Shown here: positions 28,752-44,260 of the stretch, piece by piece
Numbering within the stretch: position 1 is the stretch's first letter
Layout: the number at the start of each line of letters is the position of its first letter
NCBI GenBank assembly: GCA_026706695.1
Contig: JAPOYE010000089.1
Location: 1-47,500, forward strand
Origin: Candidatus Dadabacteria bacterium
GTDB lineage: Bacteria; Desulfobacterota_D; UBA1144; Nemesobacterales; Nemesobacteraceae
Length of the DNA stretch: 47,500 nucleotides
Direction of reading: 5' to 3'
The notes under the pieces: generated by a model
Databases searched by the model: none
What the model was told of the DNA's origin: nothing
The model's input: the letters and a program-made list of their open reading frames with translations, nothing else
Translations under genes and position numbers: made by a program

Positions 28752-30308
28752 CTATCTTACCGTGGCGAAATGCCTTTCTTTCGTGGATGAGATGACGGAA
28801 TTTCTTGAAGCGGGGATTTTACGCGATATTTCAGAGGCGGTAAAGCCCGCGGTGCCCGTTTCATCTAAAAGAAGGTCGGCCGCGTGGCCGTGGAGGAAGA
28901 CGCCGAGCAGGCAGGACTGAAGGGGGTCGTATCCCTGGGCCGCGAGTCCCCCGATTATTCCCGTAAGCACGTCTCCGGTTCCGGCCGTGGCCATGGCGGA
29001 ATTTCCGGTCGGGTTTATGAACACCTCCCCGCCGGGAGTGGAGACGACCGTTCTCGCTCCCTTAAGAACGACGTAGCAGCCGTATTTTTCGGAAAAACGG
29101 GTCGAGATCCCGACGCGGTCATCCTGCACCTGTTTTGTTCTTACGCCGCAGAGTCTTGCCATTTCCCCTGGGTGCGGAGTTATTACCGCGGGAATTTCCG
29201 TTTTCCTTAGAATCTCGGGGTTCTTTGAAACTATGTTAAGGGCGTCGGCATCGAGCGTGACCGGCACTTCGCACTGGGTTATCACCTTCTCAAGAAACTT
29301 CCCTGCGCTTTTGGAAGTCGATATCCCGGGGCCGACGGCAAGAGCCGTCTTTTTGCCTTCAAGTTCCCGGAGCACCTCTTCGTAGGCGTCGGGATGGAAG
29401 GTTCCGTCCTTTGAGTCCTTAAGCGAAACGGACATTACCTCGGTTGTCTTTTCCTCAACAGCCGAGGATATGCTTTTTGGAACCCCCAGGGTTACGAGTC
29501 CGCTTCCGGCGCGAAGGGCTGCCTCGGCGGAGAGGACCGCAGCCCCGCTTTTTCCCGGAGAGCCTGCGAGCACGAGAAGGTGTCCGTAGGTTCCTTTGTG
29601 TGAATCGGCGGCCCTTTTTTTAATGAGGCCCCGGCATTTTTGAAACGTGAGAAGTTCAAGGGGAAGGTTCTCCCAAAGCGTTTTGGGAATTGTTATGTCC
29701 GTTACGCAGAGTTTTCCCGAGTAATCCACTCCCGGGTGAATGCACATCCCGAGTTTCGCCGGGGCGAAGGTGACGGTAACGTCGGCCTGCACGGCTGCCC
29801 CGAGAGGTTGCCCCGTATCGGCGTCAAGTCCCGAGGGTATGTCGACGGAAATGCGCCGGGCGCTCTGGCGGTTTATGAATTTTATGAGCTTCTCGTAAAA
29901 CCCTTCCACCTTCCTGTCGAGCCCGGTACCGAAGATGGCGTCGACTATGACTTCCGTATCCTTTATCCTGGGAAGCTTTCCGCCGAGCTCCCTTACGTCG
30001 GCTTCGATCTCGAGAAGCGAGTCGAGGTTCGTTTTCGCGTCACCCCTGTAGCGTTCCTTTTTCTCTGCGATGTGGACGCTTACCTCTTTTCCCGAGGAAA
30101 TAAGATGGCGCGCGATTACGAAACCGTCCCCTGCGTTGTTTCCGGCGCCGCAGATGACCGCCATCTTCTTTGCGGAAGGACACTCGGCGAGGATGACCGA
30201 CGCCACGGCTCTTCCGGCGTTCTCCATAAGCACGACGCCCGGAACTCCGAATTCCTCAATCGTCCTTCGGTCTATTTCCCTTGAGATCTGCTTGGTTGAA
30301 AGTTTCAT
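28752..30308 (-). CDS. nnr: Bifunctional NAD(P)H-hydrate repair enzyme (epimerase/dehydratase)
   Basis: Repairs damaged NAD(P)HX: the N-terminal YjeF domain epimerises R/S hydrates and the C-terminal domain dehydrates the S form using ADP. The 518 residues comprise an N-domain (about 1-215) with GAGNNAGDG, IFGTGL and SVDIPSGLDADTG, and a C-domain (about 225-510) with HKGTYGHLLVLAGSPGKSGAA (ends shown), ITPHPGEMARL, and the ribokinase-like catalytic NSAMATAGTGDVLTG. Both active regions look intact. It is followed by tsaE after 5 nt and preceded by a small Cys-rich gene after 30 nt, all on the same strand. Confidence 0.95.
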   Translation of the reverse strand: MKLSTKQISREIDRRTIEEFGVPGVVLMENAGRAVASVILAECPSAKKMAVICGAGNNAGDGFVIARHLISSGKEVSVHIAEKKERYRGDAKTNLDSLLEIEADVRELGGKLPRIKDTEVIVDAIFGTGLDRKVEGFYEKLIKFINRQSARRISVDIPSGLDADTGQPLGAAVQADVTVTFAPAKLGMCIHPGVDYSGKLCVTDITIPKTLWENLPLELLTFQKCRGLIKKRAADSHKGTYGHLLVLAGSPGKSGAAVLSAEAALRAGSGLVTLGVPKSISSAVEEKTTEVMSVSLKDSKDGTFHPDAYEEVLRELEGKKTALAVGPGISTSKSAGKFLEKVITQCEVPVTLDADALNIVSKNPEILRKTEIPAVITPHPGEMARLCGVRTKQVQDDRVGISTRFSEKYGCYVVLKGARTVVSTPGGEVFINPTGNSAMATAGTGDVLTGIIGGLAAQGYDPLQSCLLGVFLHGHAADLLLDETGTAGFTASEISRKIPASRNSVISSTKERHFATVR

Positions 30309-30338
30309 GGTTCTCTGGGGCTGGTCCCCCGGATTTGC

Positions 30339-30620
30339 CTATTTCCCCATACCGCCTGCTCCGGTGGGTCTTGTATCTCCGAGGTTTTCTATATGCGCGC
30401 TGATGAATTCCTCGGCGTGATCAAAGCAGAAATAGTAGGAAAGAAGAGTGCTGCCGCTTCGGTTAACCGTGATCAGCTGGTAGTGGCGACTGCAGATATC
30501 CATTCCGCACCTGACGCACTGCTTGATCTGGTTTCTTTCTCCCGAAAGTTCGCATTGCTCCCCTCCGGGACTTACGTGATCACACTGGTAGATTTCAACT
30601 TCTATTGTTTTTACCGACAA
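30339..30620 (-). CDS. Small Cys/His-rich protein, probably zinc-binding
   Basis: I do not recognise this 93-residue protein. It contains CDHVSPGGEQC (about 13-23), CVRCGMDICSRHY (about 35-47) and a later CFDHAEEF. The spacing of cysteines and histidines suggests a two-site zinc module, with the central CxxC-x4-CxxH resembling a ZnF/B-box-like knuckle. The start is TTG at 30620, supported by GGAGG 8 nt upstream; no in-frame ATG is available. It heads the nnr-tsaE-lysC-cimA gene run and is divergent from the radical-SAM gene. Confidence 0.65.
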   Translation of the reverse strand: MSVKTIEVEIYQCDHVSPGGEQCELSGERNQIKQCVRCGMDICSRHYQLITVNRSGSTLLSYYFCFDHAEEFISAHIENLGDTRPTGAGGMGK

Positions 30621-30673
30621 GTGCTTTACCTCCCCTTGGTTTCTTCATTAATTATACAGTTTTGCGTAAGTGT

Positions 30674-30701
30674 TTGGTAAATCACGCGGATAATTTATAA
30701 T
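30674..30701 (+). promoter_or_regulatory. Probable promoter of the host radical-SAM gene
   Basis: TTGGTA (30674-30679), a 16-nt spacer and a perfect TATAAT (30696-30701). It lies 20 nt before the ATG at 30722, in the divergent gap between the small zinc-type gene and the radical-SAM gene. Confidence 0.55.
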
Positions 30702-30721
30702 AGACGGGAAGGATAGAGTTG

Positions 30722-31690
30722 ATGATACATCCAAGACAGGCCCTAAACGGCACATTAAAGTATTTCTACATAAAGGCCACCGGAAGGCCGAAACTCCTCA
30801 ATCTTGAGATAACAAAGCTTTGCAACGCCCGCTGCGATTTCTGCGACTACTGGCAGACAAAACACGAAGAGCGTCTTTCTGACTACACTCCCGTAATAAA
30901 GAAAATAAACCCCCTCGTCACGGTTATCACGGGCGGGGAGCCTATGATCAGAAAGGATCTTCCCGATATCGTGAGACAGATAAAGGGATGCTCCATATTC
31001 ATTTTCACTTCCATGGTCACCAAGGGAGATTTCCTTACCGAGGACAAAACTGAAGAGCTTTTCGACGCGGGGATGGATCAGATCGCCGTTTCCCTTGATT
31101 TTCCGGGCGAAAAGCACGACACATACAGAGGCATTCCGGGTCTCTGGAAAAAGCTGTCGGAAACCCTGCCCGAACTGGCGGAGCGGTTTCCCGACAAAAG
31201 CCTCGTGCTTAACACCATAATAATGGAAGACAATCTCGACGAGGTGGTCGAGATAGCGAAGAAGGCCAGGGAGTGGGGAATAGCCATATCCTTCAGCTCC
31301 TACTCGGTCATGAAAACCAACAACGAAGACCACTTCGTGAAAAGGGAAGCTCTCTCGAAGGTAAGTGACCTTGTAGAGGAACTGATCGCGCTTCGAAAGA
31401 AGTGGAAGGGGACGATACTCTCAACCGAGTACTACCTGAGGGAAATCCCGGGCTATTTTGAGAGGGGAAGCGTTCCCGACTGCCTGGCCGGCATCAATCA
31501 GATACACGTTACCCCGAGCGGACACTTAAAACGCTGCTCCGAGATGCCCGTGGCTGCCCACTACAGCGAATACAGACCGGATCTTTACGAAAAAACCAAG
31601 TGCACTTCCTGCTGGTACAGCTGCAGGGGTGAGACCCAGAGCCCGGCGAACGTCAAAAGGGCCATGGAATACATGGGAATCTATATCTAA
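30722..31690 (+). CDS. Radical SAM/SPASM-like protein (site of the island junction)
   Basis: A 322-residue radical-SAM protein. The [4Fe-4S] motif is CNARCDFC (about 36-43, CX3CX2C), followed by the GGEP motif (TGGEPMIRKDL). The C-terminus has clustered cysteines (CSEM, KCTSCWYSC), like a SPASM/twitch auxiliary-cluster region. The substrate is unknown. ATG 30722 is preceded by GGAAGG about 9 nt away; a TTG just before it (30719) is less likely. The last 157 bp of the gene occur again, slightly diverged, at 41532-41688, so the gene marks the left edge of the accessory island. The 3' half may have been exchanged during insertion. Confidence 0.88.
   Translation: MIHPRQALNGTLKYFYIKATGRPKLLNLEITKLCNARCDFCDYWQTKHEERLSDYTPVIKKINPLVTVITGGEPMIRKDLPDIVRQIKGCSIFIFTSMVTKGDFLTEDKTEELFDAGMDQIAVSLDFPGEKHDTYRGIPGLWKKLSETLPELAERFPDKSLVLNTIIMEDNLDEVVEIAKKAREWGIAISFSSYSVMKTNNEDHFVKREALSKVSDLVEELIALRKKWKGTILSTEYYLREIPGYFERGSVPDCLAGINQIHVTPSGHLKRCSEMPVAAHYSEYRPDLYEKTKCTSCWYSCRGETQSPANVKRAMEYMGIYI
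31534..31690 (+). repeat. Left copy of the 157-bp direct repeat flanking the island
   Basis: The final 157 bp of the radical-SAM gene, up to and including its stop codon. It matches 41532-41688 at 149 of 157 positions by my alignment, without gaps. Identity stops abruptly on both sides: 31691 onward differs completely from 41689 onward, and sequence before 31534 differs from that before 41532. Confidence 0.9.
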
Positions 31691-31846: not shown

Positions 31847-32866
31847 ATGAAAGAAAGTTACGATACTCTCAATGTCGAGGAAATAGACTTTGACATTGAC
31901 AACCCTAGGATAAAAATGGCCTTAGAAAAATACGGGGACCGATTGAATGCGGAACGTATTTATTTTGCTTTGCGGACCGCGACGGATGGGGAGCAAAAAA
32001 CTTCTTCTTTTTCCAGCCTGAAGGATTCAATTCACGCTAACAAAGGAATAACGCAACCGATCACGGTTGTATTGGTAGGAGATAAAAAAATTTGCATTGA
32101 TGGAAATTCCCGCCTTGCAATATATAAGGATTTCCTCAAGCAAGAAATCCCCGGTGATTGGTCTCGAATTAAAGCTCTGGTTATCGAAGGCGCGAGCCAG
32201 CGAGATATAGAGACAATCCGTGTATCGGCCCATCTCGTCGGTGTCAGAGAATGGCCTGCCTATGAAAAGGCTAGATATCTTGATTATCTTCGCAACCAAG
32301 AGTTCATGGAATACGAAGAGATAATAGCTCTTTGCGGAGGTGACAGAAACAAAATAGAACGTCAAATTGATGCTTACCGAGACATGAACGAATATTATCG
32401 AGATATCGTTGACGATACGGCATTTCGTATTGACAGATTTAGCGGTTTTGTAGAACTTCAGAAGCAAAATGTAAAGGATGCCATATTCCAGGCTGGATTT
32501 GAGCTAACGGATTTCGGGGAATGGATTCGGGATGGCAAGATACACCGCTTGGCTGATGTACGTCACTTGCCCAAAGTCCTTCATGATGACGAGGCTAGGG
32601 AAACTTTCCTTAATGGGGGTCTACGTTCCATAGAAGATGCGATAAAGTTGCTTGACAGAAAGAATCCCAAGTTTGCTACGGCAACTTTGGAGAATGCTAC
32701 TATATATCAGATAGCGGATATTCTCGCACGGCGTATTAATGACCTACCTTATTCTGAAGTCCGCTCTCTAAGAGAAAAAGAGCACGAAGATGTCATTGAA
32801 AATATAAACTCTCTGGAAGATTTATCCATTCGTTTAGAGAACCTTCTTGAAGATGTCTCAGAGTGA
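31847..32866 (+). CDS. ParB-like protein 1 of the island operon
   Basis: A 339-residue protein of the ParB/sulfiredoxin superfamily. Near the N-terminus is FDIDNPRIK (about 15-23), followed by a KDSI-x5-GITQPI segment and the superfamily loop DGNSRL (85-90), which corresponds to the GxxR phosphate/NTP-binding motif of ParB. A central helical region (WPAYEKARYLDY, about 136-147) is shared in position with the second ParB-like protein of the operon (WSAYEKANFAY). A poor helix-turn-helix is possible after it. Such domains in accessory operons can be nucleases, NTP-dependent DNA clamps or target-recognition factors; which applies here is unknown. AGGAG precedes the ATG. The nuclease gene starts inside its last codons. 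Confidence 0.82.
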   Translation: MKESYDTLNVEEIDFDIDNPRIKMALEKYGDRLNAERIYFALRTATDGEQKTSSFSSLKDSIHANKGITQPITVVLVGDKKICIDGNSRLAIYKDFLKQEIPGDWSRIKALVIEGASQRDIETIRVSAHLVGVREWPAYEKARYLDYLRNQEFMEYEEIIALCGGDRNKIERQIDAYRDMNEYYRDIVDDTAFRIDRFSGFVELQKQNVKDAIFQAGFELTDFGEWIRDGKIHRLADVRHLPKVLHDDEARETFLNGGLRSIEDAIKLLDRKNPKFATATLENATIYQIADILARRINDLPYSEVRSLREKEHEDVIENINSLEDLSIRLENLLEDVSE

Positions 32867-33296
32867 AGCACACAAAGCCTTGGTAAAAGGGGTAGTGGTT
32901 GCTTTGAGGTCTCGATTTACAAACATCTCAATACGGATAGACCTACAGCAAAATCCAGGAGACGAAGTGCCGCCGAAGATTGACCGCTTTAGACCTGATG
33001 TATACGCCACGCAGAAGCGAGGATATCCCGTTGTCATTGCGGAAGCCAAGACAGATGGGGATATAGACAATCGACATACGCATGACCAAGTTGTAGCCTT
33101 TATTAGATATCTGGACCGAAACGAAACGAATCTCTTCATTATGGCCGTGACCGGTTACAGAGCTGACCGTGCAAAGACCTTTCTACGCTTCATCAGGAAG
33201 GAATTACAGGTTGTTAGCACGGAAATTGAAATTTTTGACGGTTGTGATTTTTGGCGATTAGATTCGAGTGAGGGTATAAATTGGCGTTTGTACTGA
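32853..33296 (+). CDS. Small PD-(D/E)xK nuclease-like protein
   Basis: A 147-residue protein with a restriction-endonuclease-like core: RPDV (D49), a strand, then VIAEAKT (E64, K66), and a later HDQV segment, matching the PD-x(n)-ExK pattern with a downstream Gln. The family resembles the N-terminal nuclease domain of type I/III restriction subunits (HSDR_N-like), here as a separate protein. ATG 32853 overlaps the ParB-like gene by 14 nt, and the SNF2 gene starts 16 nt before this gene ends, so the products are likely made in step. A split nuclease-plus-helicase restriction machine is a reasonable inference. Confidence 0.75.
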   Translation: MSQSEAHKALVKGVVVALRSRFTNISIRIDLQQNPGDEVPPKIDRFRPDVYATQKRGYPVVIAEAKTDGDIDNRHTHDQVVAFIRYLDRNETNLFIMAVTGYRADRAKTFLRFIRKELQVVSTEIEIFDGCDFWRLDSSEGINWRLY

Positions 33297-34747
33297 GAAA
33301 ACCGCCTAAATTGAGCGCTAAACATGAGGGTTACCCTTATCAACTAGATGCCGTAAGAGAGATAAAGTCTCTTCCGTACGCAGCGATTTTTCATGAGCAG
33401 GGTCTAGGCAAGACGAAAATAGCAATTGACCTCATGTTGCTTTGGCTGAGTGAAGATGTGGTTGATACGGTATTCGTGGTCACAAAAAAAACACTAGTTC
33501 AAAACTGGTGCGATGAATTGGCTTCTCACTGCCATGTAACTCCAAGGATTTTATCCGGTAATCGCCGTGACAACAGTATCTCTCTTAACTCTCCGATACT
33601 GGTCTATGTCATGAACTACGAGGTCATATCCTCAAACTTCGACTTGATACGAGATTTCCTCCGTACTTGCAGGGTTGGAGCCGTTCTGGATGAAAGCCAA
33701 AAGATCAAGAATCCGGACGCACGACTTTCAACATGTTTCCATTCACTTGCAGAAGAATTTACCCGCCGCGTAATTATGACGGGAACCCCTGTAGCTAACC
33801 GTCCTTACGATGTGTGGTCGCAGATCAAGTTTCTAGATGGTGGCGAAGCGCTAGGTGACTCGTTTGACGATTTCAAGAAGTTTGCTGACCTTCCGTCGAC
33901 TCTAGGCAAAACGAAAGAATATGGTTTTCAGCTGGCAGGAATAATGGATAAACTGAAAGGGTTTTCCGTGAGAGAAACAAAGAGCTCAGCGGGGCTGAAC
34001 TTGCCGAGCAAAACCATCCTGACTCATCTCGTTGCACTGGAGTCTCGCCAAGCAGCAATATATTCCTCATACAGAGACGATATGTCTTATGAACTACAGA
34101 GTGTCGATGGCTTTGTTACCGATAATGCGGAAGATATTCTGAAACGCCTTCTAAGGCTTGTTCAGTGTGCTTCGAATCCATCCCTTGTAGATGATACGTA
34201 CGAAGAACTTCCTGCGAAATACCTTAAACTGGTCGAACTGCTTGACGACATCAACATTTGGTCGAACAAGGTAATTGTGTGGACCGGGTTCATTGACAAC
34301 GTTGAATGGCTATGTGGCAAGCTGGAGGAATTTGTGCCACAAAAGGTGCATGGTTCTATGTCCGTTTCAGACCGAAACCAATCTATCAGAAGGTTCAAAT
34401 CGAATAAAGATTGCAGGGTCTTGCTGGCCACGCCGGGTGCCGCCAAAGAAGGACTAACCTTAACAGTGGCTAACCATGCGATATTCTATGACCGAAGTTT
34501 CAGTCTTGATGACTATATTCAGGCACAGGACCGAATCCACAGGATTTCTCAGACCGAAGAGTGTTTCGTACACAACATACTCGCTAAAAACACCATTGAT
34601 GAATGGGTGGATGATCTGCTGAATGCTAAGTATCAGGCAGCCCGGCTTGTACAAGGAGATATATCAAAAGACAGTTTTGACACTGAGTTTAATTTTGACC
34701 TGTCGGATGCTTTAGCACAGATACTTTTGTCCGACAAGGATAAATAG
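33281..34747 (+). CDS. SNF2-family DNA helicase/translocase
   Basis: A 488-residue superfamily 2 ATPase of the SNF2/HepA type. Walker A is EQGLGKTKIA (39-48), motif II is DESQ (137-140, instead of the usual DEAH/DEGH), and motif III is MTGTPVANRPYDVWS (about 167-180). The helicase C domain has WTGFIDNVE, LLATPGAAKEGLTL and motif VI QAQDRIHRISQ. It should translocate on double-stranded DNA rather than unwind it, as SNF2 proteins do. TTG 33281 is the start, with GAGGG about 6 nt upstream, and overlaps the nuclease gene by 16 nt. There is no recognisable target-binding domain of its own, so ParB-like partners may supply specificity. Confidence 0.88.
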   Translation: MAFVLRKPPKLSAKHEGYPYQLDAVREIKSLPYAAIFHEQGLGKTKIAIDLMLLWLSEDVVDTVFVVTKKTLVQNWCDELASHCHVTPRILSGNRRDNSISLNSPILVYVMNYEVISSNFDLIRDFLRTCRVGAVLDESQKIKNPDARLSTCFHSLAEEFTRRVIMTGTPVANRPYDVWSQIKFLDGGEALGDSFDDFKKFADLPSTLGKTKEYGFQLAGIMDKLKGFSVRETKSSAGLNLPSKTILTHLVALESRQAAIYSSYRDDMSYELQSVDGFVTDNAEDILKRLLRLVQCASNPSLVDDTYEELPAKYLKLVELLDDINIWSNKVIVWTGFIDNVEWLCGKLEEFVPQKVHGSMSVSDRNQSIRRFKSNKDCRVLLATPGAAKEGLTLTVANHAIFYDRSFSLDDYIQAQDRIHRISQTEECFVHNILAKNTIDEWVDDLLNAKYQAARLVQGDISKDSFDTEFNFDLSDALAQILLSDKDK

Positions 34748-34771
34748 TATGAATCTGGAGGATGTTAAGAT

Positions 34772-35773
34772 ATGAGAGAAAATGAGATAAAGATATTGCG
34801 AGAAACCGTACAAGTAAGCAACGATTATCACAATATATATGAGCTAAGATTTCTGAAAGACAACCCCAGAGTTTATTCTTGTATATACGAGGAACCGGAT
34901 TTCGAAGACCTTCCTGAGGCTGTGCAGCAGGAAAAAATTTTTGAAAAACTTCAGGCAGAACCAAGCGTAAAGAACCTTGTACGAGAAATAGAAAGGCATG
35001 GTGGCTTGATGGAACGAATCTTAGTCCGACTCGACACAATGCAAGTTATTGAGGGCAACTCCCGATTAGCTGTATATCGAATACTGTACGAGAAAACAAA
35101 GAAAGAAGACTGGGAGCTTATCCCTTGCGATATTGTTCAAACGCTCTCTGATGAACAACAAATAGCTTATCTAAATCAAATTCATGTCAAAGGCAAAACA
35201 GAGTGGTCCGCTTACGAAAAGGCCAACTTTGCATACGCACGCAAGACACAGGGATTCCCCCTGCCTAAGATTGCCAAACTATTCGGTGAGTCTGAAGGGA
35301 CGATCCGTACCAGAATTAAGGTTGTTGAAACGATGCGGAACAACAACGATAGAGACAGGTCTCATTTTAGTCATTACGATGTTTTGGTTAGGAACCACTC
35401 AAGCGATATGAACCAACGCCCGGACTTGAAAAGTGCGTTGTTAGAACGTATTCGCAATCTGGGAGATAATGAAGAGGAAGATTTGGATTTTACGGCCCAA
35501 GAGCTTAGGAAGAAATTGCCGGCCATTATAAAAAAGCCCAAGGTTCTCAACAAATACATTGAAGGAACTATTGGCTTGGACAATGCGTATCAAAGGGCCA
35601 AGATCAGTAATGTGCAGGAAAGAATACGCGAGGCGAAAGCAATTCTGGAAGGTATAGAGAAAAAGAATGTCAAGAAGTTGGATAAGAACGACCTTAATGC
35701 ATTTAGGCAAGATGTGCGCAAGCTGGAAAGAGAAGTTGGAAGGATAGTTAGAATGACGAATGAGGCAAACTAA
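34772..35773 (+). CDS. ParB-like protein 2 of the island operon
   Basis: A 333-residue ParB-superfamily protein, clearly related in layout to ParB-like protein 1: DNPRVY (30-35), the loop EGNSRL (94-99), a DWELIPCDIV strand, WSAYEKANFAYARK (about 145-158), then a good helix-turn-helix candidate (GFPLPKIAKLFGESEGTIRT, about 161-180) as in Spo0J/ParB. A charged C-terminal region (about 280-333) could be a coiled-coil dimerisation segment. GGAGG lies 10 nt before the ATG; 24 nt separate it from the helicase gene. It directly abuts the radical-SAM gene, whose Shine-Dalgarno lies in its last codons. Confidence 0.82.
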   Translation: MRENEIKILRETVQVSNDYHNIYELRFLKDNPRVYSCIYEEPDFEDLPEAVQQEKIFEKLQAEPSVKNLVREIERHGGLMERILVRLDTMQVIEGNSRLAVYRILYEKTKKEDWELIPCDIVQTLSDEQQIAYLNQIHVKGKTEWSAYEKANFAYARKTQGFPLPKIAKLFGESEGTIRTRIKVVETMRNNNDRDRSHFSHYDVLVRNHSSDMNQRPDLKSALLERIRNLGDNEEEDLDFTAQELRKKLPAIIKKPKVLNKYIEGTIGLDNAYQRAKISNVQERIREAKAILEGIEKKNVKKLDKNDLNAFRQDVRKLEREVGRIVRMTNEAN

Positions 35774-37438
35774 ATGCTTGGAAAGAGTATTCTGCTGCTT
35801 GAACCTGGGTACAAGAATAAATACCCTCCCTTGGGGTTAATGAAGCTGGCGGCATATCACCGAAATCGAGGTGATAAGTTGCGGTTTGCTAAGGGAGAGG
35901 ATTTTTCAGTGTTGAGCGAAGCATGGGACCGTGTATATGTGACCACGCTTTTCAGCTTTGAGTGGGACCGCACTTCAAAAGCCATCGATTTTGCCATAAG
36001 AGCCGCAGGTAACCAACCGGAACGCGTGTTCGTGGGAGGTATAGCGGCTTCTCTTATGCACGATGAATTTATCAAAGAACCTAAATGGGCTGGAGTCCGG
36101 TTTATTGCTGGCCTGCTTGACAGAGCCCCTGCGCGCGCGTTGCGACTATCTGCTGACGAAGGTGATTTCGGTGCTGACGATGTTACTGGTACACCAATTG
36201 AGGAACATGTCCCGGATTACGATATCCTTGATGATATAGATTACACCTATCCCGTTAACGATGCCTATTTTGGTTATGCGTCTAGAGGGTGTATCCGTAA
36301 ATGCCATTTCTGTGGCGTTCCAAAACTTGAGGGAATGCAGAAAGAAATGCCCCCTTTATCCCAACTAGTTGAAGGTATTGAAGCGAAGTACGGTCCAAAA
36401 AAAGATCTCATACTGATGGATAACAACATCACCGCTTCTTCTCGTTACAAGGAAATCATTGCGGAAATCCGTGACCTCGGATTTACCTCGGGAAGCCGCT
36501 TGGAGCGCGATGGAAGACGCCTCAAACGGCGTGTGGACTTCAACCAAGGTGTCGATGCTAGAATACTGGTGAAATCGCCGATGTACCTGAGGGAAATGGC
36601 GACTATTTGTATCAGTCCCCTACGGATTGCGTTTGATCATATCGGTATTCGAAAAGTATACAGTACGGCGGTTCGCATGGCTGCTGACAACGGCATCACG
36701 TCACTCTCCAATTATATGCTATATAATTTCATGGACACTCCGGAAGACCTGTACAATCGAATGAAGCTGAACATTAAGCTGAACGCGGAACTTGGAATTC
36801 GCATCTGGTCCTTCCCCATGCGGTATCAACCCGTCACGCTCAAGGACCGTTCTCACATAGGGAAACATTGGAATCGATATTACCTTCGCTCCTTTCAGGT
36901 TATGTTGCAGGCAACTCACGGCGTTGTAAGTGGCAGTGAAACTTTCTTCAATCATGCCTACGGAAGCAATCAAGAGGAATTTAAGCGCCTGCTGAGTCTT
37001 CCGCATGGGTTCATTTTTCATCGCGAACATTACGAAAAAGGTGCTGGACGTTCAGTGCGGGAGGAGTATGAAATACTTCGGAACCGCATGTCTTCGAATC
37101 AAGAAGACGAATTGCTAGGCTATCTTGCCTCTTGCTTTGGTGGGGAGAAAGCCAGAGGAAGACAGTACGCCAGAATCGCTGGAACAAGCAGGGTTGACTC
37201 GCTGGTTCGTCAAGCCATATTGTTTCACACCCTGGGAACAAAGAATGAGTCAATGGTAACTAGCTCCGAACGAGTCTCTTCAATGTTTCCTCCAGTCAAT
37301 CAAGGTTTCTTGCTACCGAGTGAGGAAGAAATCGTAGAAGATTCTGGCCTTTACGAACGGGACGATGCAATCGAAAAGAAAGAGACTTCTAAGGAGCCGG
37401 AACCACCTTCCATAAGTGAGACCATATGCGGCACTTAG
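35774..37438 (+). CDS. Radical SAM protein with possible B12-type N-terminal domain
   Basis: A 554-residue radical-SAM enzyme. The N-terminal about 120 residues begin with a strand and then YPPLGLMKLAAYHRNRGDKL, which looks like the cobalamin-binding-like domain at the start of many B12-dependent radical-SAM proteins. The cluster motif is CIRKCHFC (C173, C177, C180). Downstream are DNNI, a FNQGVDARIL segment and FMDTPEDLYNRM, as in other B12-type rSAM proteins. The about 200 C-terminal residues are unfamiliar, with an acidic/proline-rich tail. The reaction could be methylation or another modification of nucleic acid or protein; the substrate is not evident. Its ATG is immediately after the ParB-like 2 stop codon. 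Confidence 0.83.
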   Translation: MLGKSILLLEPGYKNKYPPLGLMKLAAYHRNRGDKLRFAKGEDFSVLSEAWDRVYVTTLFSFEWDRTSKAIDFAIRAAGNQPERVFVGGIAASLMHDEFIKEPKWAGVRFIAGLLDRAPARALRLSADEGDFGADDVTGTPIEEHVPDYDILDDIDYTYPVNDAYFGYASRGCIRKCHFCGVPKLEGMQKEMPPLSQLVEGIEAKYGPKKDLILMDNNITASSRYKEIIAEIRDLGFTSGSRLERDGRRLKRRVDFNQGVDARILVKSPMYLREMATICISPLRIAFDHIGIRKVYSTAVRMAADNGITSLSNYMLYNFMDTPEDLYNRMKLNIKLNAELGIRIWSFPMRYQPVTLKDRSHIGKHWNRYYLRSFQVMLQATHGVVSGSETFFNHAYGSNQEEFKRLLSLPHGFIFHREHYEKGAGRSVREEYEILRNRMSSNQEDELLGYLASCFGGEKARGRQYARIAGTSRVDSLVRQAILFHTLGTKNESMVTSSERVSSMFPPVNQGFLLPSEEEIVEDSGLYERDDAIEKKETSKEPEPPSISETICGT

Positions 37439-37442
37439 GAAT

Positions 37443-38954
37443 ATGAATAAAAAAAACGAAACGACAGACAAGCTCCCTGAATTGCCGATACACATAGGTG
37501 GGGATATCCTCAGCCTTATAACGTCTGCAATGTATACTTCGCCTTTGTCTGTCTATCGCGAATATATTCAGAATGCTGCCGATTCGATTGCCGCTTTTGG
37601 CAAGCCGGAAGATTGCAAAATAGACATTAAAATTGACCTCGCTTCAATGTATTTATCAATACGAGATAATGGCTTAGGGTTATCTCATGCTCAGGCAATT
37701 GAAGAGCTTATTCCTATTGCGAACAGCAATAAGCACCGGCAAACTGACAGAGGCTTCAGAGGTATCGGTCGACTGTGTGGGCTTGCTTTTGGTGAATCGG
37801 TTTCATTTCTTACGCGTACCAAGGATACGGATCCTGTAACTCGTGTTGTGTGGAACAGAACCCATCTAAGAAGAAGTATCGACAGCAATCTGCCAATAGA
37901 AAAAATCATCTCTAATTGCGTTACGGTTGATGTTATAAAAGAGGACACTTATCCGACACGGTTCTTTGAAGTTCAAATTAGCGGTATATCTAGATACGCG
38001 GCATCTTTCATCCTAAACCGTGACTTGGTTAGCGAGTATATAGGGGAAATCTGCCCAGTTCCTTTCTCAGAAGATTTTCCGTATGCGACGCAAGTATTAA
38101 ACCTGTTTGAAGAAGACCAAAAACCTTTGATGTTGGAAATTGTAATTGATAACCAGAAAATCCCGGTTACAAGGTTGCACGGAAGCGGCACTTGTATTTC
38201 TGGGAACCATCTGGACGCATTTGTTGACTTTGAAAAAATTACCATCCCCTCATTAGAAGGTGATAGAAATGCAGCTACTGGATGGATTGCGCATTCATCT
38301 TACCTAGGTGCGCTTCTGCAAAAACCAAGCATAAGATGTATGCGTGTTAGAATAGGCAACATTCAAGTTGGAGACGAAACAGTTTTTGACCACCTCTTTT
38401 CGGAAACTCGTTTCAATCGGTGGTGTGTATCGGAAATTCATATACTGGACTCTCGCATAGTTCCCAACGCAAGGCGAGACTACTTTGAACCGGGTCCCCA
38501 CCTTAGAAACCTTGAGAACCAACTAAAGATAGTCTGTCGCAACTTGGAGAGAAAATGCAGAATTGCCTCAAAGGAACGCAATGAGCAGCGACAATTTCAG
38601 TCTCTTCTCGATAATGTTAATGCGACTTATGAACTTGCAGCATCCAAATATCTAACTGCAAAAGCGGCAAGAGAACTGATCACTGAAACCTTGGCGGAAA
38701 TTGCACGTTTGCGGGACAAACATAAAGAACCGGAATGGCAAAATGGCAAGATGGATAAGTTAAATGAGTTGGAGAGGAGGCTCTCCAGTTTCCGAGCAAG
38801 CCGAGGTCAAGTATATTTCCCAGGCATTGCTGCGTCAGAAGTATCCATATACCGAAACATTTTTCAGATTCTTACCGAAATATCTCCATCGCCGCAAGCA
38901 GCAAAAGACACAATTGATACTATTTTATCTAAGGTAAAAAGAGAAAAATTTTAG
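37443..38954 (+). CDS. Hsp90-like (GHKL) ATPase
   Basis: A GHKL-type ATPase resembling the N-terminal region of HtpG/Hsp90. The N box is YREYIQNAADSI (about 38-49; E40, N44, D47), G1 is IRDNGLGLS (73-81), and G2 is GFRGIGRLCGLAFGE (104-118), so the ATP lid motifs are intact. The middle and C-terminal parts (about 140-503) do not look like bacterial HtpG, and the protein (503 residues from ATG 37443) is shorter than HtpG, so it is not the housekeeping chaperone. A GTG at 37416 would add nine residues and overlap the radical-SAM gene. It is the last gene of the tightly packed operon; a tandem repeat and palindrome follow the stop. Confidence 0.82.
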   Translation: MNKKNETTDKLPELPIHIGGDILSLITSAMYTSPLSVYREYIQNAADSIAAFGKPEDCKIDIKIDLASMYLSIRDNGLGLSHAQAIEELIPIANSNKHRQTDRGFRGIGRLCGLAFGESVSFLTRTKDTDPVTRVVWNRTHLRRSIDSNLPIEKIISNCVTVDVIKEDTYPTRFFEVQISGISRYAASFILNRDLVSEYIGEICPVPFSEDFPYATQVLNLFEEDQKPLMLEIVIDNQKIPVTRLHGSGTCISGNHLDAFVDFEKITIPSLEGDRNAATGWIAHSSYLGALLQKPSIRCMRVRIGNIQVGDETVFDHLFSETRFNRWCVSEIHILDSRIVPNARRDYFEPGPHLRNLENQLKIVCRNLERKCRIASKERNEQRQFQSLLDNVNATYELAASKYLTAKAARELITETLAEIARLRDKHKEPEWQNGKMDKLNELERRLSSFRASRGQVYFPGIAASEVSIYRNIFQILTEISPSPQAAKDTIDTILSKVKREKF

Positions 38955-38977
38955 CAGCTATTATTTTAGCAGCTATT
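38948..38977. repeat. Perfect 15-bp tandem repeat spanning the ATPase stop codon
   Basis: ATTTTAGCAGCTATT occurs twice in a row, and the first copy contains the stop codon of the Hsp90-like gene. A further perfect palindrome (TTAATTG-TT-CAATTAA, 38976-38991) follows directly. Together they mark the boundary between the AT-rich operon and the GC-richer DGQHR gene. Confidence 0.75.
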
Positions 38978-38991
38978 AATTGTTCAATTAA
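38976..38991. promoter_or_regulatory. Palindrome between the operon and the DGQHR gene
   Basis: Two perfect 7-bp arms, TTAATTG and CAATTAA, separated by TT. It is not followed by a T-run, so it is more likely a protein-binding site than a terminator. It lies 42 nt before the DGQHR start codon. Confidence 0.4.
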
Positions 38992-39032
38992 CCCGAACAT
39001 CTTGCGTTTATAGAGATGGAGCGACCTGTGTC

Positions 39033-41345
39033 ATGACCGACCAATACCTAGGCCCCCTAGTGTCCGGCGATGAGCTTACATCCGAGCTCAGGAAACGGAA
39101 AAAGAAAGATGTGTACAAGACTGTCTCGGGTTCGTCGAAGAAGCTCATTGCTGAAAAGGTGAAGCTGGAAGAAGTTGACGGTTGGCGGATGTTCAGAAAG
39201 AACGCGAAGTCAACGCGGATGGCCAAGGCCAAGCCCGTTGACGAGCAGATTGAAGATGAAGTCTGGTGCATCCTAGCCCAGATGGGCTTCAAGGAGATGA
39301 GCAAAGGGCGTCAGTTCACGATTGCCGTCGAAAGTGACCTGCCACCACGTCAGGTCGATGTGTTTGCCAAGGACGATGAAGCCGTCATCATCGTCGAGTG
39401 CGCACAGCGCGATACGCCGGGCAAGGAGAAGATGGACCAACTGGTCGAGGAGATCAGGACAACTCGCGAGAACCTGCTCAAATCGGTCCGCGGGACCTAC
39501 GGCCAAGAGAGCAAGCTCAAAGTCAAACATGTCATCGCTACAAGAAACATCTCATGGAGAGACGAAGACCTTGCCGAGTGCGAGCAAGCGCAGATTGCGG
39601 TGGTCACCGACGGCGAACTCGACTACTATACGTCGCTCGTGCAGCATCTCAAGCACGCGGCACGCTACCAGTTTTTGGGGCATATGTTTGGCGGTCAGAA
39701 GATTGAAGGCCTAGCCAAGAAAGTCGTAGCTACCCGAAGCAAGATGGGGGGTGAGACGTTCTACACTTTCCTCATCCGCCCAGATGAGCTTTTGAAGGTC
39801 GCCTACGTCGGCCACAAGGCAAGCCGCGACATCGAGAATCTGGAAACATACCAGCGTATGCTCCAGTCGCGCCGACTGAAAAAGATTGCAGAGTACATCA
39901 ATGGTGGCGGCAAGTTTCCGACGAATATAGTTGTCAACCTGAAGACCGGCAGGAAGAAATTGCGATTTGATGCGAAGGAAAAATACGGTGAAGAGGAGTG
40001 GGGCGTACTTTATCTGCCGCCGAGCTATGCCTCGGCTTGGATCATCGATGGTCAGCATAGGCTCTACGGATACGCTTACGCACGTGCGACAGAGGGCTTC
40101 AATCAGGATTCGACGGTCTTGCCCGTGCTTGCTTATGAGAATCTTCCTGCCGAGAAGGAGATGAACCTCTTCATCGATATCAACAGCAAACAGACCAAAG
40201 TGAGCACGGGCCTGTTGGTTGAGCTTTACTCGGACCTTCATTGGGGTTCTTCCGACCCTGAAGAAGCGTTCCAAGCCCTGCTCTCGCGCATCGCCTCGCG
40301 TCTTAACGGCGAGAAGACCTCGCCGCTTCATGACCGCATGGTTGTCACCGGAAAGAAGAAGACTCGGTATCGCTGCCTGACGCAGACCTCGATCCGGGAC
40401 GGTCTTGACGTTGCCAAGCTATTAGGAACGTTCAGCAAGGGTGCAATTGTGCCGGGTCCACTGTCGACGGGCAGGTCCGATGACTATGCTGCGAACCTCA
40501 AGAAAGGCCTATCGGTGCTTTCGGATTGCCTCGGCATGTTCTCGACCCAGCTAACGAACCACTGGGAGCTCGGCGATGGTACCGGAGGATATCTATGTAC
40601 GAATAATGGCATTCGGGCTCTGTTTCACGTTATCAAAGACATTGCTGACCATATCCGGGACACAGACGGAACAGACCTTTGCCTTTTCAATGCCGATGAG
40701 ACTTTCGCGGAAATCAAACCGTATTTTCAGGTCTTGGTCGACTATTTCAACGACGCATCCGGGCAAGAAATCCAATCCTTTAGACGCACCGGCTCTTCAC
40801 TGACAGCCGTTCGGGACCAGGCCTATGGAATGGAAGCGCATATCAACAAGAAGTTTCACGACTTCAACCCCGCAGGACTGCAAAAGTACTTGGAGTCCCG
40901 TGATGAAGTGGGTACAGAAGAAGCGACCAACAATGTGAATAAGATAAACCGGAAACTCTTTGACTACGTCATCGGAACGTTGAAGAAACATTACGGTACG
41001 GAAGAAAAAGTGTGGTGGACGAAGGGTATTCCTGTTGAAATCCGCAAGGATTGCACGAGCAGATGGGAGGAAAAAAATCGTGAAGGCGAGGAAGAATCTC
41101 AGCTTTATCTGATCAACTATATCGATATCTGTCACAAGAATTGGGACTTATTCAAAGACGTGGTTTCGCTGGATTCCCGTGACAAGAACAACTGGAAAGC
41201 AAGCACGAGATGGATCAAGGACCTCAACGAGATACGCAAGATCACGGCGCATCCTGAGCGCGGCGTTCTGACCACGGACCAAGTCGCCTCCGTAAACGAG
41301 CTTTTTGACAAGGTCAAAGAGCATTTTCCTGAGGATATCTCGTAA
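39033..41345 (+). CDS. DGQHR-domain protein with degenerate nuclease-like N-domain and HEPN/Swt1-like C-domain
   Basis: A 770-residue multidomain protein. N-terminal part (about 85-205): the strand pattern RQVDVFAKDDEAVIIVECAQ resembles a Mrr/PD-(D/E)xK nuclease with D109 and E122, but the following lysine is replaced (ECA), so cleavage activity is doubtful. Central part (about 235-560): DGQHR at 339-343 (WIIDGQHRLYGYAYA) and FIDINSKQTKVS (380-391), as in DndB-like DGQHR proteins of the ParB superfamily. C-terminal part (about 640-765): WWTKGIP, a KNWDLF segment and EIRKITAHPERG, with R735-x4-H740 matching the HEPN RNase RX4-6H motif, most like the Swt1-type HEPN domain. GGAG precedes the ATG at 11 nt. 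Base composition is higher in G+C than in the preceding six genes. Confidence 0.83.
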   Translation: MTDQYLGPLVSGDELTSELRKRKKKDVYKTVSGSSKKLIAEKVKLEEVDGWRMFRKNAKSTRMAKAKPVDEQIEDEVWCILAQMGFKEMSKGRQFTIAVESDLPPRQVDVFAKDDEAVIIVECAQRDTPGKEKMDQLVEEIRTTRENLLKSVRGTYGQESKLKVKHVIATRNISWRDEDLAECEQAQIAVVTDGELDYYTSLVQHLKHAARYQFLGHMFGGQKIEGLAKKVVATRSKMGGETFYTFLIRPDELLKVAYVGHKASRDIENLETYQRMLQSRRLKKIAEYINGGGKFPTNIVVNLKTGRKKLRFDAKEKYGEEEWGVLYLPPSYASAWIIDGQHRLYGYAYARATEGFNQDSTVLPVLAYENLPAEKEMNLFIDINSKQTKVSTGLLVELYSDLHWGSSDPEEAFQALLSRIASRLNGEKTSPLHDRMVVTGKKKTRYRCLTQTSIRDGLDVAKLLGTFSKGAIVPGPLSTGRSDDYAANLKKGLSVLSDCLGMFSTQLTNHWELGDGTGGYLCTNNGIRALFHVIKDIADHIRDTDGTDLCLFNADETFAEIKPYFQVLVDYFNDASGQEIQSFRRTGSSLTAVRDQAYGMEAHINKKFHDFNPAGLQKYLESRDEVGTEEATNNVNKINRKLFDYVIGTLKKHYGTEEKVWWTKGIPVEIRKDCTSRWEEKNREGEEESQLYLINYIDICHKNWDLFKDVVSLDSRDKNNWKASTRWIKDLNEIRKITAHPERGVLTTDQVASVNELFDKVKEHFPEDIS

Positions 41346-41531: not shown

Positions 41532-41688
41532 CTGCTCCGAGATGCCCGTAGCCGCCCACTACAGCGACTACAAACCGGATCTTTACGAAAAAACCAAGTG
41601 CACTTCCTGCTGGTACAGCTGCAGGGGGGAGACCCAGAGCCCGGCGAACGTCAAAAGGGCCATGGAATACATGGGAATTTATATTTAG
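41532..41688 (+). repeat. Right copy of the 157-bp direct repeat (3' fragment of a radical-SAM gene)
   Basis: A second copy of the last 51 codons plus stop of the 30722-31690 radical-SAM gene, without its 5' part. It keeps the reading frame. Eight differences were counted; only two change the protein (Glu to Asp, Arg to Lys), the rest are silent or alter the stop (TAA to TAG). It therefore comes from a functional, slightly diverged homologue, not from a decaying local copy. It is either the displaced original end of the gene or the end brought in by the island. Confidence 0.9.
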
Positions 41689-41824
41689 CCCGGACGTTTA
41701 GGGTCCTTTTCGATACTCTCTGTGTGTTTAATCTGATTACGCCTTTGTCGGACTTGGTTGAATTCTAGGCGAAGGATACGTGATCAATAACCTCTCTACG
41801 GTGTTTTTGCCCCTTGCAGCTTCT

Positions 41825-41868
41825 GGGCGGCTTTATCAAAAGTGTAGGGACCGAAAAATAAACCGCCC
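41825..41868. other. Long inverted repeat downstream of the ADP-ribosylglycohydrolase gene
   Basis: GGGCGG-C-TTTAT and ATAAA-CCGCCC can pair over 11 bp with a single bulged C, leaving a loop of about 20 nt. It lies 60 nt past the end of the minus-strand gene. It lacks a T-run in that direction, and its function is unknown. The remaining sequence 41689-41928 shows no gene. Confidence 0.5.
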
Positions 41869-41928
41869 TGTGTTTTGTCGCAAGTCCGGAAATGATTTTC
41901 TAGCACCCCTTCGTACTTAGACCTGCGT

Positions 41929-42714
41929 TCAAGTTCGGACTGCCGTCTTGTACATTCGTTCCATCACCTTGACAATATCCGGGGCCCCGGAAAGGGACTG
42001 ATCCACAGCCTGCGCCACAAGGTGATCAGGAATGCCATGCATAGCTTCGGCAATCGGCCCGGCTATCGCCGCCAGTGTGTCGGAGTCGCCTCCTAGAGAG
42101 ATAGCGTTTCGAACGGCGTCTTCAAAACTTGTTGATTCAAGTGCGCACGTGATGGCTTCGGGAACGGTTTGTTGGCAGGTGTTGCTGTAGGAATATCCGG
42201 ATCGGATATCATCAACTGCCTTGGAGAGATCGTATTCGTATTCGCGCTCGATGGTCTTGCGTATGTCCTTCGGTTCGTATTTCTGAAAGGCAAGCCAGAT
42301 GGCGTGCGTCGCTGCCCTCGCTCCCTTCATGCCCTCGGGGTGGTTGTGAGTGATCCTGGTTACCCGGTCGGTGGCCGCAAGCGCCTCTTCGAGCGGATGG
42401 CTCCGGTTAAGGAAGGCAGCCGGCGACACCCGCATTACCGCTCCGTTTCCATAGCTGTGATACGGCTGGGGATCAGGGCTCGCGATCCAGTTTCTGAACA
42501 TGGTGCCGTAGCCACGATTCGGATGGTTCCGGCCCCATCGCTGCAGGGTGGGTGCGGCGGGCAGGTTGTCAAGGAGTATCTCCGCGACCGCTGCGGTACA
42601 CACCGAGTCGTCGGTGTAAAAACAGTTGTTTTGTAAGAGCTCAACCTCCTCTGTCTCGAAGGGTACGAATAAATAGACCGAACCCGCGATATCTCCAATT
42701 ATGGCTCCCCACAT
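41929..42714 (-). CDS. ADP-ribosylglycohydrolase family protein (DraG-like)
   Basis: A 261-residue protein of the ADP-ribosylglycohydrolase (DraG/ARH) family, which removes ADP-ribose from proteins or related substrates. The start MWGAIIGDIAGS (ATG 42714) has AGGAGG 7 nt upstream; a longer frame from 42765 is not needed. The dinuclear Mg site motifs are visible: TDDSV near the N-terminus, then SYGNGAVMRVSP and THNHPEGMKGA in the middle, and SLGGDSDTLAAIAG at the C-terminus. All expected acidic residues are kept, so it should be active. It lies just outside the right repeat of the island and reads towards it; whether it is chromosomal or part of accessory DNA is open. Confidence 0.9.
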   Translation of the reverse strand: MWGAIIGDIAGSVYLFVPFETEEVELLQNNCFYTDDSVCTAAVAEILLDNLPAAPTLQRWGRNHPNRGYGTMFRNWIASPDPQPYHSYGNGAVMRVSPAAFLNRSHPLEEALAATDRVTRITHNHPEGMKGARAATHAIWLAFQKYEPKDIRKTIEREYEYDLSKAVDDIRSGYSYSNTCQQTVPEAITCALESTSFEDAVRNAISLGGDSDTLAAIAGPIAEAMHGIPDHLVAQAVDQSLSGAPDIVKVMERMYKTAVRT

Positions 42715-42814
42715 AGTGTTGCCTCCTGTCCGTGCTCTTTCCCGCTTTGCCCGACTACGCGCCACCAGTTTTCACGAAGCAGGAAAAAAGGCAGCGTTTC
42801 TTCAGGGACTGGTA

Positions 42815-44260
42815 TCAGGTTCTCTGTGCTTTCCAGTCGGTGCCGCCCGGGCGGTCTTCAAGCACGATTCCCTTGGAACTTAGGTAGTCCCTTATTTCAT
42901 CGGCCTTTTTCCAGTTCTTTTCCTCTCTGGCCGAGTTTCTCTCCTCTATAAGTTTTTCTATCTCAAAGGGATCTATGTCTGAGAGGTTGGCGGTGGACTT
43001 TCTTTTCTCCATGTACTCGGCCGGTTCCTCTGAGAGGACTCCGAGCACTCCGCATATCTCCTTTATCTTCTCAAGCGCTAGGGTTGCGCTTTGAGTCTTT
43101 CCCACGGAGTCAAGCGATCTGTTAATCGAGCGTATCAGGTCAAAAAGACTCCCCACCACATCGGCAGTATTGAAGTTGTCGCTCATCGAAGAGTGAAAAT
43201 CCTCTTCGAATTTCCTGATCGAACCCTCAAGTGCGGGGTCGGAGCCCTTGGCTTCCCGCGCCTCTGCGGCTCTCAGCAGGGCCTGGTATATTCTCTCAAG
43301 CGCCGCCTCGCTGTCATGCATGCTTTTCTCCGAGAAATCTGCCGGGTTCTGGTAGTGGTGCGAGAGGAAGAAAAGCCTTATGGCCTCCGGGGACCATCTT
43401 TTAGTTGCCTCGGAAAGCGTGAAGAAGTTCCCCAGGGACTTTGACATCTTCTCCTTGTTTATTCTTATCAGGCCGTTATGAAGCCAGTACTTTGCAAACG
43501 GCTCTCCGGAGGCAGCCTCCGACTGGGCTATCTCGTTTTCGTGGTGCGGGAAGATGAGGTCCTTTCCCCCTCCATGTATCTCGAAATTCGTTCCCAAATA
43601 CTCCATGCTCATAACGGAGCACTCTATGTGCCATCCGGGCCTTCCGTCTCCCCACGGGCTTTTCCAAGCCGGCTCGCCGGGTTTTGACTCCTTCCAGAGC
43701 GCGAAATCAAGAGGGTCTTCCTTTTCCTCGTTTACGTCTATTCTCACTCCTTCAAGCATGTGATCAAGCGACCTGCAGGAGAGCTTTCCGTAGTCCGGGA
43801 ATTTTCTCACGGAGAAAAAGACGTTGTTGCCCGAGCGGTAGGCGAAGCCTTTCTCTATTATCTTTTCTATGAGCGCTATTATCTGCTCCAGATGCTCGGT
43901 TACCCGGGGCTCGACGTCTGGAGTCTCAACCCCTATCGAGGCCATGTCCTCTCTGTATTCCTTTATGTACTTCTCGGATATCTCATCGCAGCTTACCCCT
44001 TCCTGATTGGAGCGGGTTATTATCTTGTCGTCTATGTCGGTGTAGTTTCTCGCGAACAGAACGTCGTAGCCGGCGTATCTGAGGAATCTCTGTATAATGT
44101 CAAAAGACACCGCGGAGCGGGCGTGCCCCAGATGGGCTGAGTCATATACCGTGGGACCGCAGACATACATCCGGACCTTGTCTCCCTCAAAGGGAATGAG
44201 ATCTTCTTTTTTCTGCGAGAGAGAATTGTAGATTTTTATTTTGGGAAGTTCTTTCGGCAT
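42815..44260 (-). CDS. cysS: Cysteine--tRNA ligase
   Basis: Charges tRNA-Cys with cysteine. The 481-residue protein has the class I motifs HLGHA (HIGH-type, about 43-47) and KMSKS, and zinc ligands in MYVCGPTVYD, the ECSV segment and HHENE. FPHHENEIAQSEA and the C-terminal DALR-like helical domain are typical of CysRS. The length is normal. The ATG at 44260 has no Shine-Dalgarno directly before it; the only AAGGAGG is in the 5' arm of a hairpin at 44269-44289, whose 3' arm can mask it. Confidence 0.97.
   Translation of the reverse strand: MPKELPKIKIYNSLSQKKEDLIPFEGDKVRMYVCGPTVYDSAHLGHARSAVSFDIIQRFLRYAGYDVLFARNYTDIDDKIITRSNQEGVSCDEISEKYIKEYREDMASIGVETPDVEPRVTEHLEQIIALIEKIIEKGFAYRSGNNVFFSVRKFPDYGKLSCRSLDHMLEGVRIDVNEEKEDPLDFALWKESKPGEPAWKSPWGDGRPGWHIECSVMSMEYLGTNFEIHGGGKDLIFPHHENEIAQSEAASGEPFAKYWLHNGLIRINKEKMSKSLGNFFTLSEATKRWSPEAIRLFFLSHHYQNPADFSEKSMHDSEAALERIYQALLRAAEAREAKGSDPALEGSIRKFEEDFHSSMSDNFNTADVVGSLFDLIRSINRSLDSVGKTQSATLALEKIKEICGVLGVLSEEPAEYMEKRKSTANLSDIDPFEIEKLIEERNSAREEKNWKKADEIRDYLSSKGIVLEDRPGGTDWKAQRT

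Follow-up and report, generated by a model that had tools for sequence, protein, structure and literature searches.

A 47,500-nucleotide (nt) stretch of the Candidatus Dadabacteria contig JAPOYE010000089.1, analysed at its full length and hereafter called the window, carries a cassette of seven genes (w1-w7) that we read, with a probability of roughly 0.55, as a mobile, modular anti-invader system that marks and restricts. Its core consists of a radical S-adenosylmethionine (radical-SAM) enzyme and an Hsp90-like GHKL ATPase, around which modules are exchanged. That this is one modular mobile system is close to certain; that it acts against invaders, presumably viruses among them, is highly probable; and the proposal that its core marks DNA is evenly poised. 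The system is real, mobile and widespread, and as far as our tests reach it has not been described before. The features of the copy in the window are as follows.

31534..31689: left copy of a 156-nt direct repeat, the 3' end of the insertion-site gene (from repeat comparison and empty sites in congeners)
31847..32866, + strand: w1 (ParBa), ParB-fold protein with NPR and GNSR motifs, first gene of module A
32853..33296, + strand: w2, stand-alone PD-(D/E)xK nuclease (from its invariant catalytic residues)
33281..34747, + strand: w3, SNF2-type superfamily-2 ATPase (TTG start assumed)
34772..35773, + strand: w4 (ParBb), second ParB-like protein with NPR and GNSR motifs
35774..37438, + strand: w5 (core), radical-SAM enzyme with CxxxCxxC, a VDFNQGxDxR signature and a Rossmann (cobalamin-binding-like) N-terminal domain
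37443..38954, + strand: w6 (core), Hsp90-like GHKL ATPase, N-terminal and middle domains
39033..41345, + strand: w7 (module C), N-terminal region, DGQHR (DndB/DpdB-like) domain and C-terminal HEPN domain (R-x4-H)
41532..41687: right copy of the 156-nt direct repeat, the cassette end (from repeat comparison and congeners)

A conserved core with exchangeable modules

We scanned genomes for relatives of the radical-SAM protein, which gave 524 candidates, and analysed the best 80 loci by mapping family models over them; a protein search covered 72,556 plasmids. Recurrence of the six-gene order had been set beforehand as a check on the original prediction, which proposed an undescribed gene set for defence or DNA marking, and the order was found in distant bacteria, on plasmids and in viral contigs. 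Because it is kept at 23-76% protein identity across phyla, the gene set lies far beyond chance. The Hsp90-like gene stands directly 3' of the radical-SAM gene in 78 of the 80 best loci, the remaining two being cut by contig ends, and the commonest junction between the two genes is a 4-nt overlap. The reading-frame picker scored one or more modules of the nuclease, helicase, HEPN, PIN or second-GHKL kind in 57/60 adequately flanked loci; L054, which the picker scored as empty, has an unpicked GHKL paralogue.

The modules are A (ParB-PD-(D/E)xK nuclease-SNF2-ParB), B (NurA-like-HerA-like-second GHKL, the NurA and HerA labels coming from weak profile matches, motif inspection and one annotated viral record), C (DGQHR-HEPN), D (a PIN protein (PIN_8) and a second GHKL) and E (a small DGQHR protein, DndB/DpdB-like). 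Mapped on the radical-SAM tree, their combination switches 36 times or more; modules have therefore been swapped while the core was conserved. Both ParB-like genes are part of the module with the nuclease and SNF2; DGQHR-HEPN makes up a module of its own, alternative or additional. The predicted gene set stands as an undescribed, recurring DNA-conflict set, a role for which context, mobility and domain content give good support, but not as a fixed seven-gene operon. A further accessory module, convergent with the core, comprises a HerA-like protein, a GHKL paralogue and a PP_RS20740-family protein (L048:4304-8234, L088 and L093).

Linkage between the core and module A was tight on plasmids. 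Full-length copies of the radical-SAM protein, the ATPase and the small DGQHR protein all come from one identical set of 12 among the 72,556, a number that stands for fewer independent lineages because near-duplicates are included. ParBa of module A occurs in seven plasmids and full-length w7 in five, all among the 12 core carriers, and module A was never found there without the core; the PIN protein occurs in 11 of the 12, with one distant relative elsewhere. An independent search of viral contigs for ParBa returned eight loci, all with the SNF2 module, and at seven of these the radical-SAM and ATPase genes lie alongside. At the eighth (L189:8631-9989), a divergent radical-SAM gene encoding 452 amino acids (aa), with FRQGMDIR, overlaps ParBa by 4 nt; it apparently replaces the usual core. 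Homologues of this divergent protein occur in archaeal and gut phages, one of them encoded by a gene that overlaps a DNA methyltransferase gene (L236:5779-8125).

By record title, the carriers belong to Pseudomonadota, Acidobacteriota, Nitrospirota, Chloroflexota, Gemmatimonadota, Verrucomicrobiota, Actinomycetota, Latescibacterota, Binatota, Poribacteria and Dadabacteria; single phylum assignments may be wrong, since many carriers are metagenome bins. Identical radical-SAM proteins were seen in bins labelled Gammaproteobacteria and Nitrospira (L020 and L021), reflecting either recent transfer or a binning error.

Cassette borders and insertion site

In the window sequence the seven reading frames lie at the coordinates and spacing originally predicted. 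w1 and w2 overlap by 14 nt (w2 being read from the ATG at 32853) and w2 and w3 by 16 nt; w3 is separated from w4 by 24 nt, w4 from w5 by 0 nt, w5 from w6 by 4 nt (w6 being read from the ATG at 37443) and w6 from w7 by 78 nt. Together these genes fill a 10.0-kb cassette bounded by the 156-nt direct repeats, the two copies of which (31534-31689 and 41532-41687) are 96% identical at a spacing of 9998 bp. The window holds a chromosomal cassette, near a ribosomal RNA operon.

In the congener G017, the sequence corresponding to window positions 29996-31689 is fused straight to that of 41532-43094 via a single repeat copy. Since this empty site joins both flanks at one repeat copy, the insert is exactly w1-w7, with no integrase. 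Its G+C content is 45.8%, compared with 51-52% in the flanks, and the genes flanking the site are 12.5 kb apart in the window as against 1.4-5 kb in congeners. Among 14 genomes of this genus, counting the window's own, just two have the radical-SAM gene w5. The closest relative of w5, a 98% identical radical-SAM protein, lies in a genome labelled Candidatus Dadabacteria at coordinates matching those in the congener G024, which has the same left border as the window and whose similarity ends shortly before the end of w7.

A core-less congener, G022, carries a remnant at another site, in which w1 residues 1-112 are fused in frame with w7 residues 602-770 (84% and 80% identity, respectively). This remnant is an open 280-aa frame that links the ParBa N-terminus with the HEPN end of w7 (L245:8872-9711, contig C48). 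w1 and w7 were therefore the two ends of one unit there too, the middle of which was lost en bloc.

The insertion-site gene (30719-31690) is another radical-SAM gene, PTO1314-like. It was rejected as a cassette member, because congeners with an empty site also possess it and it supplies the insertion site. The ADP-ribosylglycohydrolase gene at 41929-42765 was likewise rejected: it lies beyond the repeats and varies independently among congeners. As far as cysS, the region is a hotspot of variation, in which this gene and other inserts come and go among congeners.

Protein families and relation to known systems

The core protein w5 matches the radical-SAM model PF04055 of Pfam below its cut-off and PHROG 9298 at 1e-40. 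In the family alignment, C173, C177 and C180 of the CxxxCxxC motif are invariant and are the only invariant cysteines; with a single set of cluster cysteines, a second iron-sulphur cluster of the MiaB/RimO type is absent. The predicted structure (mean predicted local distance difference test score (pLDDT) 86.5) combines a Rossmann N-terminal domain with a radical-SAM barrel, and its best fold matches are TsrM, MiaB, RimO, CysS and TokK. Although w5 shares this domain arrangement with TsrM/TokK/CysS and MiaB/RimO, it is only 11-15% identical to them and its family has the VDFNQGxDxR signature of its own. The family also conserves PPLGL, TTLF (57-60) and GG (88-89), and the TTLF/GG spacing would be compatible with a cobalamin domain; the Pfam B12-binding model gives no match to w5, and the host genome encodes two other B12-binding proteins. 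The w5 model resembles cobalamin-type methylases and methylthiotransferases.

Its partner w6 has a HATPase_c_3 domain and matches HtpG at E 6e-14. The w6 model (pLDDT 86.9) has the Hsp90 N-terminal and middle fold, with a template modelling (TM) score of 0.62 to TRAP1 over the N-terminal and middle fragment. The ATP-site motifs are kept across the family, E..QN..D in 86/90 members and RG..G.GR in 88/90.

In module A, w1 and w4 are ParB-like by PHROG and RepB matches, all of them weak profile matches, and by their motifs; w1 profile-matches Noc, SbnI and ParB structures at E 0.005-0.03 across the ParB-fold region. w2 has no significant database match. Its family alignment contains a complete PD-(D/E)xK motif, with P50, D51, E66, K68 and Q81 invariant in 27/27 members. 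w3 has SNF2 and Helicase_C domains, and the SNF2 Walker A motif is kept in 49/50 members. The original prediction had described a split nuclease-SNF2 protein, a view we reject because the w2 model matches in its own overlapping reading frame at all 53 SNF2 loci with the module-A gene set.

w7 contains a DGQHR domain (1e-57) and an HEPN_Swt1 match (5e-4, below the Pfam cut-off). It scores above the domain cut-offs of Pfam DndB and TIGR03187 (DGQHR), and reaches 83.9 against the cut-off of 450 for the dnd_1 equivalog. The HEPN R-x4-6-H motif lies in a helical C-terminal domain, with R735 invariant and H740 nearly invariant; across the family, DGQHR is kept in 16/16 and R-x4-H in most of the C-termini examined. 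A sequence search of PDB with w7 gave zero matches. A distant branch of DGQHR-HEPN proteins, on viral contigs L191-L197, is often followed by a gene for 282-302 aa and is possibly a separate stand-alone system. Near the core, a second small-DGQHR gene is followed at some loci by a 275-283-aa partner (L083:13182-15025, L086:6819-8686 and L092:3002-4819).

Domain searches, motifs and profile matches thus bear out the ParB-like, SNF2, radical-SAM, Hsp90-like and DGQHR-HEPN assignments that had been made from the window. Equally, profile searches with Pfam, NCBIfam, PADLOC and PHROG identified no model that fits w1-w7 as a system, in keeping with the predicted novelty of the set and the predicted lack of hallmark genes of Dnd, Ssp, Dpd, BREX, DISARM, Zorya and Druantia. 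No description of the gene combination was found in the literature searched, which excluded preprints and most subscription papers, so a published account may exist.

The closest parallel in organisation is with Dnd and Ssp, in which a modification module is paired with exchangeable restriction modules and DndB is a DGQHR/ParB-superfamily protein; DndABCDE is decoupled from DndFGH and other nucleases (PMC10853773). The core here, in contrast, is a radical-SAM enzyme with an Hsp90-like ATPase, and DndA, DndC (PP-loop), DndD (SMC-like), DndE, DndF/G/H and Ssp were not found among w1-w7 with Pfam, NCBIfam and PADLOC, the scope that applies to the absences below. The w7 DGQHR domain resembles DpdB and w3 the SNF2 part of DpdE, at scores far under the NCBIfam cut-offs (61 against 300 and 38.6 against 500, respectively), and neither DpdA/TGT-family nor other Dpd genes were found. 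Zorya likewise pairs a SNF2 ATPase with a nuclease (ZorD being SNF2 plus Mrr-like), but the SNF2 matches to Zorya and DISARM are generic (ZorD 65.6 bits against a cut-off of 1500, DrmD 43 against 950), and the membrane motor proteins ZorA and ZorB have no match. For DISARM, the searches yielded generic SNF2 matches to DrmD/DrmA and not the set of DrmA, DrmB, DrmC and methylase; for BREX and Druantia they yielded a generic helicase match to BrxH models and not PglZ, BrxC or DruE.

In restriction-like operons, GHKL ATPases of the paraMORC type work with superfamily-2 helicases and nucleases (Iyer et al. 2008, PMC2292703), a paper whose text never mentions 'radical', 'ParB', 'HerA' or 'NurA'; the w6 GHKL, by comparison, resembles Hsp90 in both sequence and fold, and its pairing with a radical-SAM enzyme is not known from restriction operons. 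HerA-like and NurA-like proteins stand together in module B as in HerA-based defence (NurA/HerA, HerA_antiphage and MADS mad8), but here they are tied to the radical-SAM and two-GHKL set.

Proposed mechanism, alternatives and meaning

In the mechanism that we propose, w5 and w6 would put a chemical label of self in place or keep it there, most likely on DNA. The two ParB-fold proteins of module A, as NTPase/clamp proteins, would read the mark or the state of the DNA, while the SNF2 motor would translocate on DNA and the PD-(D/E)xK nuclease would cut DNA that is unmarked. Module C may serve as a second, independent effector, with a DndB/DpdB-like DNA or nucleotide sensor fused to an HEPN RNase, which would halt growth should restriction fail. 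Elsewhere, NurA/HerA, PIN or other modules would be driven by this core. The simplest account of three observations, namely that one core serves several unrelated nuclease modules, that modules are tied to the core and that phages carry the radical-SAM gene alone, is a self mark that the core would write and each module would read. Further points in favour are the folds of the two core proteins, the resemblance of the DGQHR proteins to DndB/DpdB of known DNA-modification systems, insertion at a variable site, the deletion remnant in a congener and the defence-family neighbours.

Approximately 50 non-redundant viral proteins, mostly of about 300 aa and mostly without the ATPase, carry VDFNQGxDxR and the cluster motifs, the search pattern itself partly selecting for the former. 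Several ATPase-less phage homologues adjoin DNA methyltransferase, ParB-like or PAPS-reductase genes, and DNA methyltransferase or ParB-like neighbours are what would be expected of a mimicked mark. A relative on an uncultured archaeal plasmid (L014:10597-16170) is followed immediately by three DNA methyltransferase genes. The fullest version of the proposal is tentative: a cobalamin-type radical-SAM enzyme, assisted by an Hsp90-like ATPase, would write a DNA modification absent from known restriction systems, plug-in nuclease, RNase and translocase modules would read it, and phages would counterfeit it with a stand-alone writer.

Several observations weigh against a mark-and-restrict system. 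We infer DNA as the substrate of the radical-SAM enzyme, and no target-recognition domain was recognised in the system. Methyltransferase enrichment at the phage homologues is weak and not decisive (9/146 near against 4/147 far genes). Up to 11 defence families were matched among 83 neighbouring genes outside the system (E<1e-25), a count that has no matched control. With a median net charge of -5, the radical-SAM family is not basic, although this is uninformative as a test of DNA binding. Finally, none of the seven distant DGQHR-HEPN proteins on L191-L197 (31-33% identical to w7) has a family radical-SAM gene nearby, and module C may therefore be independent of a mark.

The best-placed alternative, itself unlikely, keeps the anti-invader role and dispenses with DNA modification: the radical-SAM enzyme would make a small-molecule signal or modified nucleotide, following a viperin-like logic, or would mature or chaperone effectors together with the Hsp90-like ATPase, the modules being alternative effectors. 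Hsp90 folds remodel client proteins, the combination of an Hsp90-like partner with the second GHKL of modules B, D and others suits control of effectors, and HEPN and PIN modules need not read DNA. Two of the main modules, however, are DNA-processing machines (ParB, SNF2, PD-(D/E)xK, HerA-like and NurA-like), the small DGQHR protein resembles DndB/DpdB, and the fold neighbours of w5 are methylating or methylthiolating enzymes rather than viperin.

A Type IV-like defence without self-marking, whose core senses or edits modified phage DNA while the modules cut marked invaders, appears improbable. ParB/DUF262-like folds do sense modified DNA in GmrSD and SspE, and a phage mark could be the target given that phages carry relatives of the w5 family; such a scheme nevertheless leaves unexplained why module A occurs with the core in 7/7 plasmids and with a radical-SAM gene in 8/8 viral contigs. 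Least probable is maintenance of a replicon or mobile element (partition, replication or repair) by ParB-like proteins and helicases, for while ParB folds and frequent plasmid carriage would suit it, the system is also chromosomal, as in the window, its conserved gene set has no ParA partner, and its HEPN, PIN and nuclease effectors, module exchange and defence-gene neighbourhood all argue otherwise.

At the level that sets Dnd, Dpd, Zorya and DISARM apart, the cassette ranks as a separate system, absent from the model libraries and literature searched; its carriers span at least 10 bacterial phyla by record title, plasmids and viral contigs. If its core does mark DNA, the mark would represent new base or backbone chemistry and would be, to our knowledge, the first self mark written by a radical-SAM enzyme. 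A large family of phage radical-SAM genes of unknown function (PHROG 9298) would then be explained as counter-defence.

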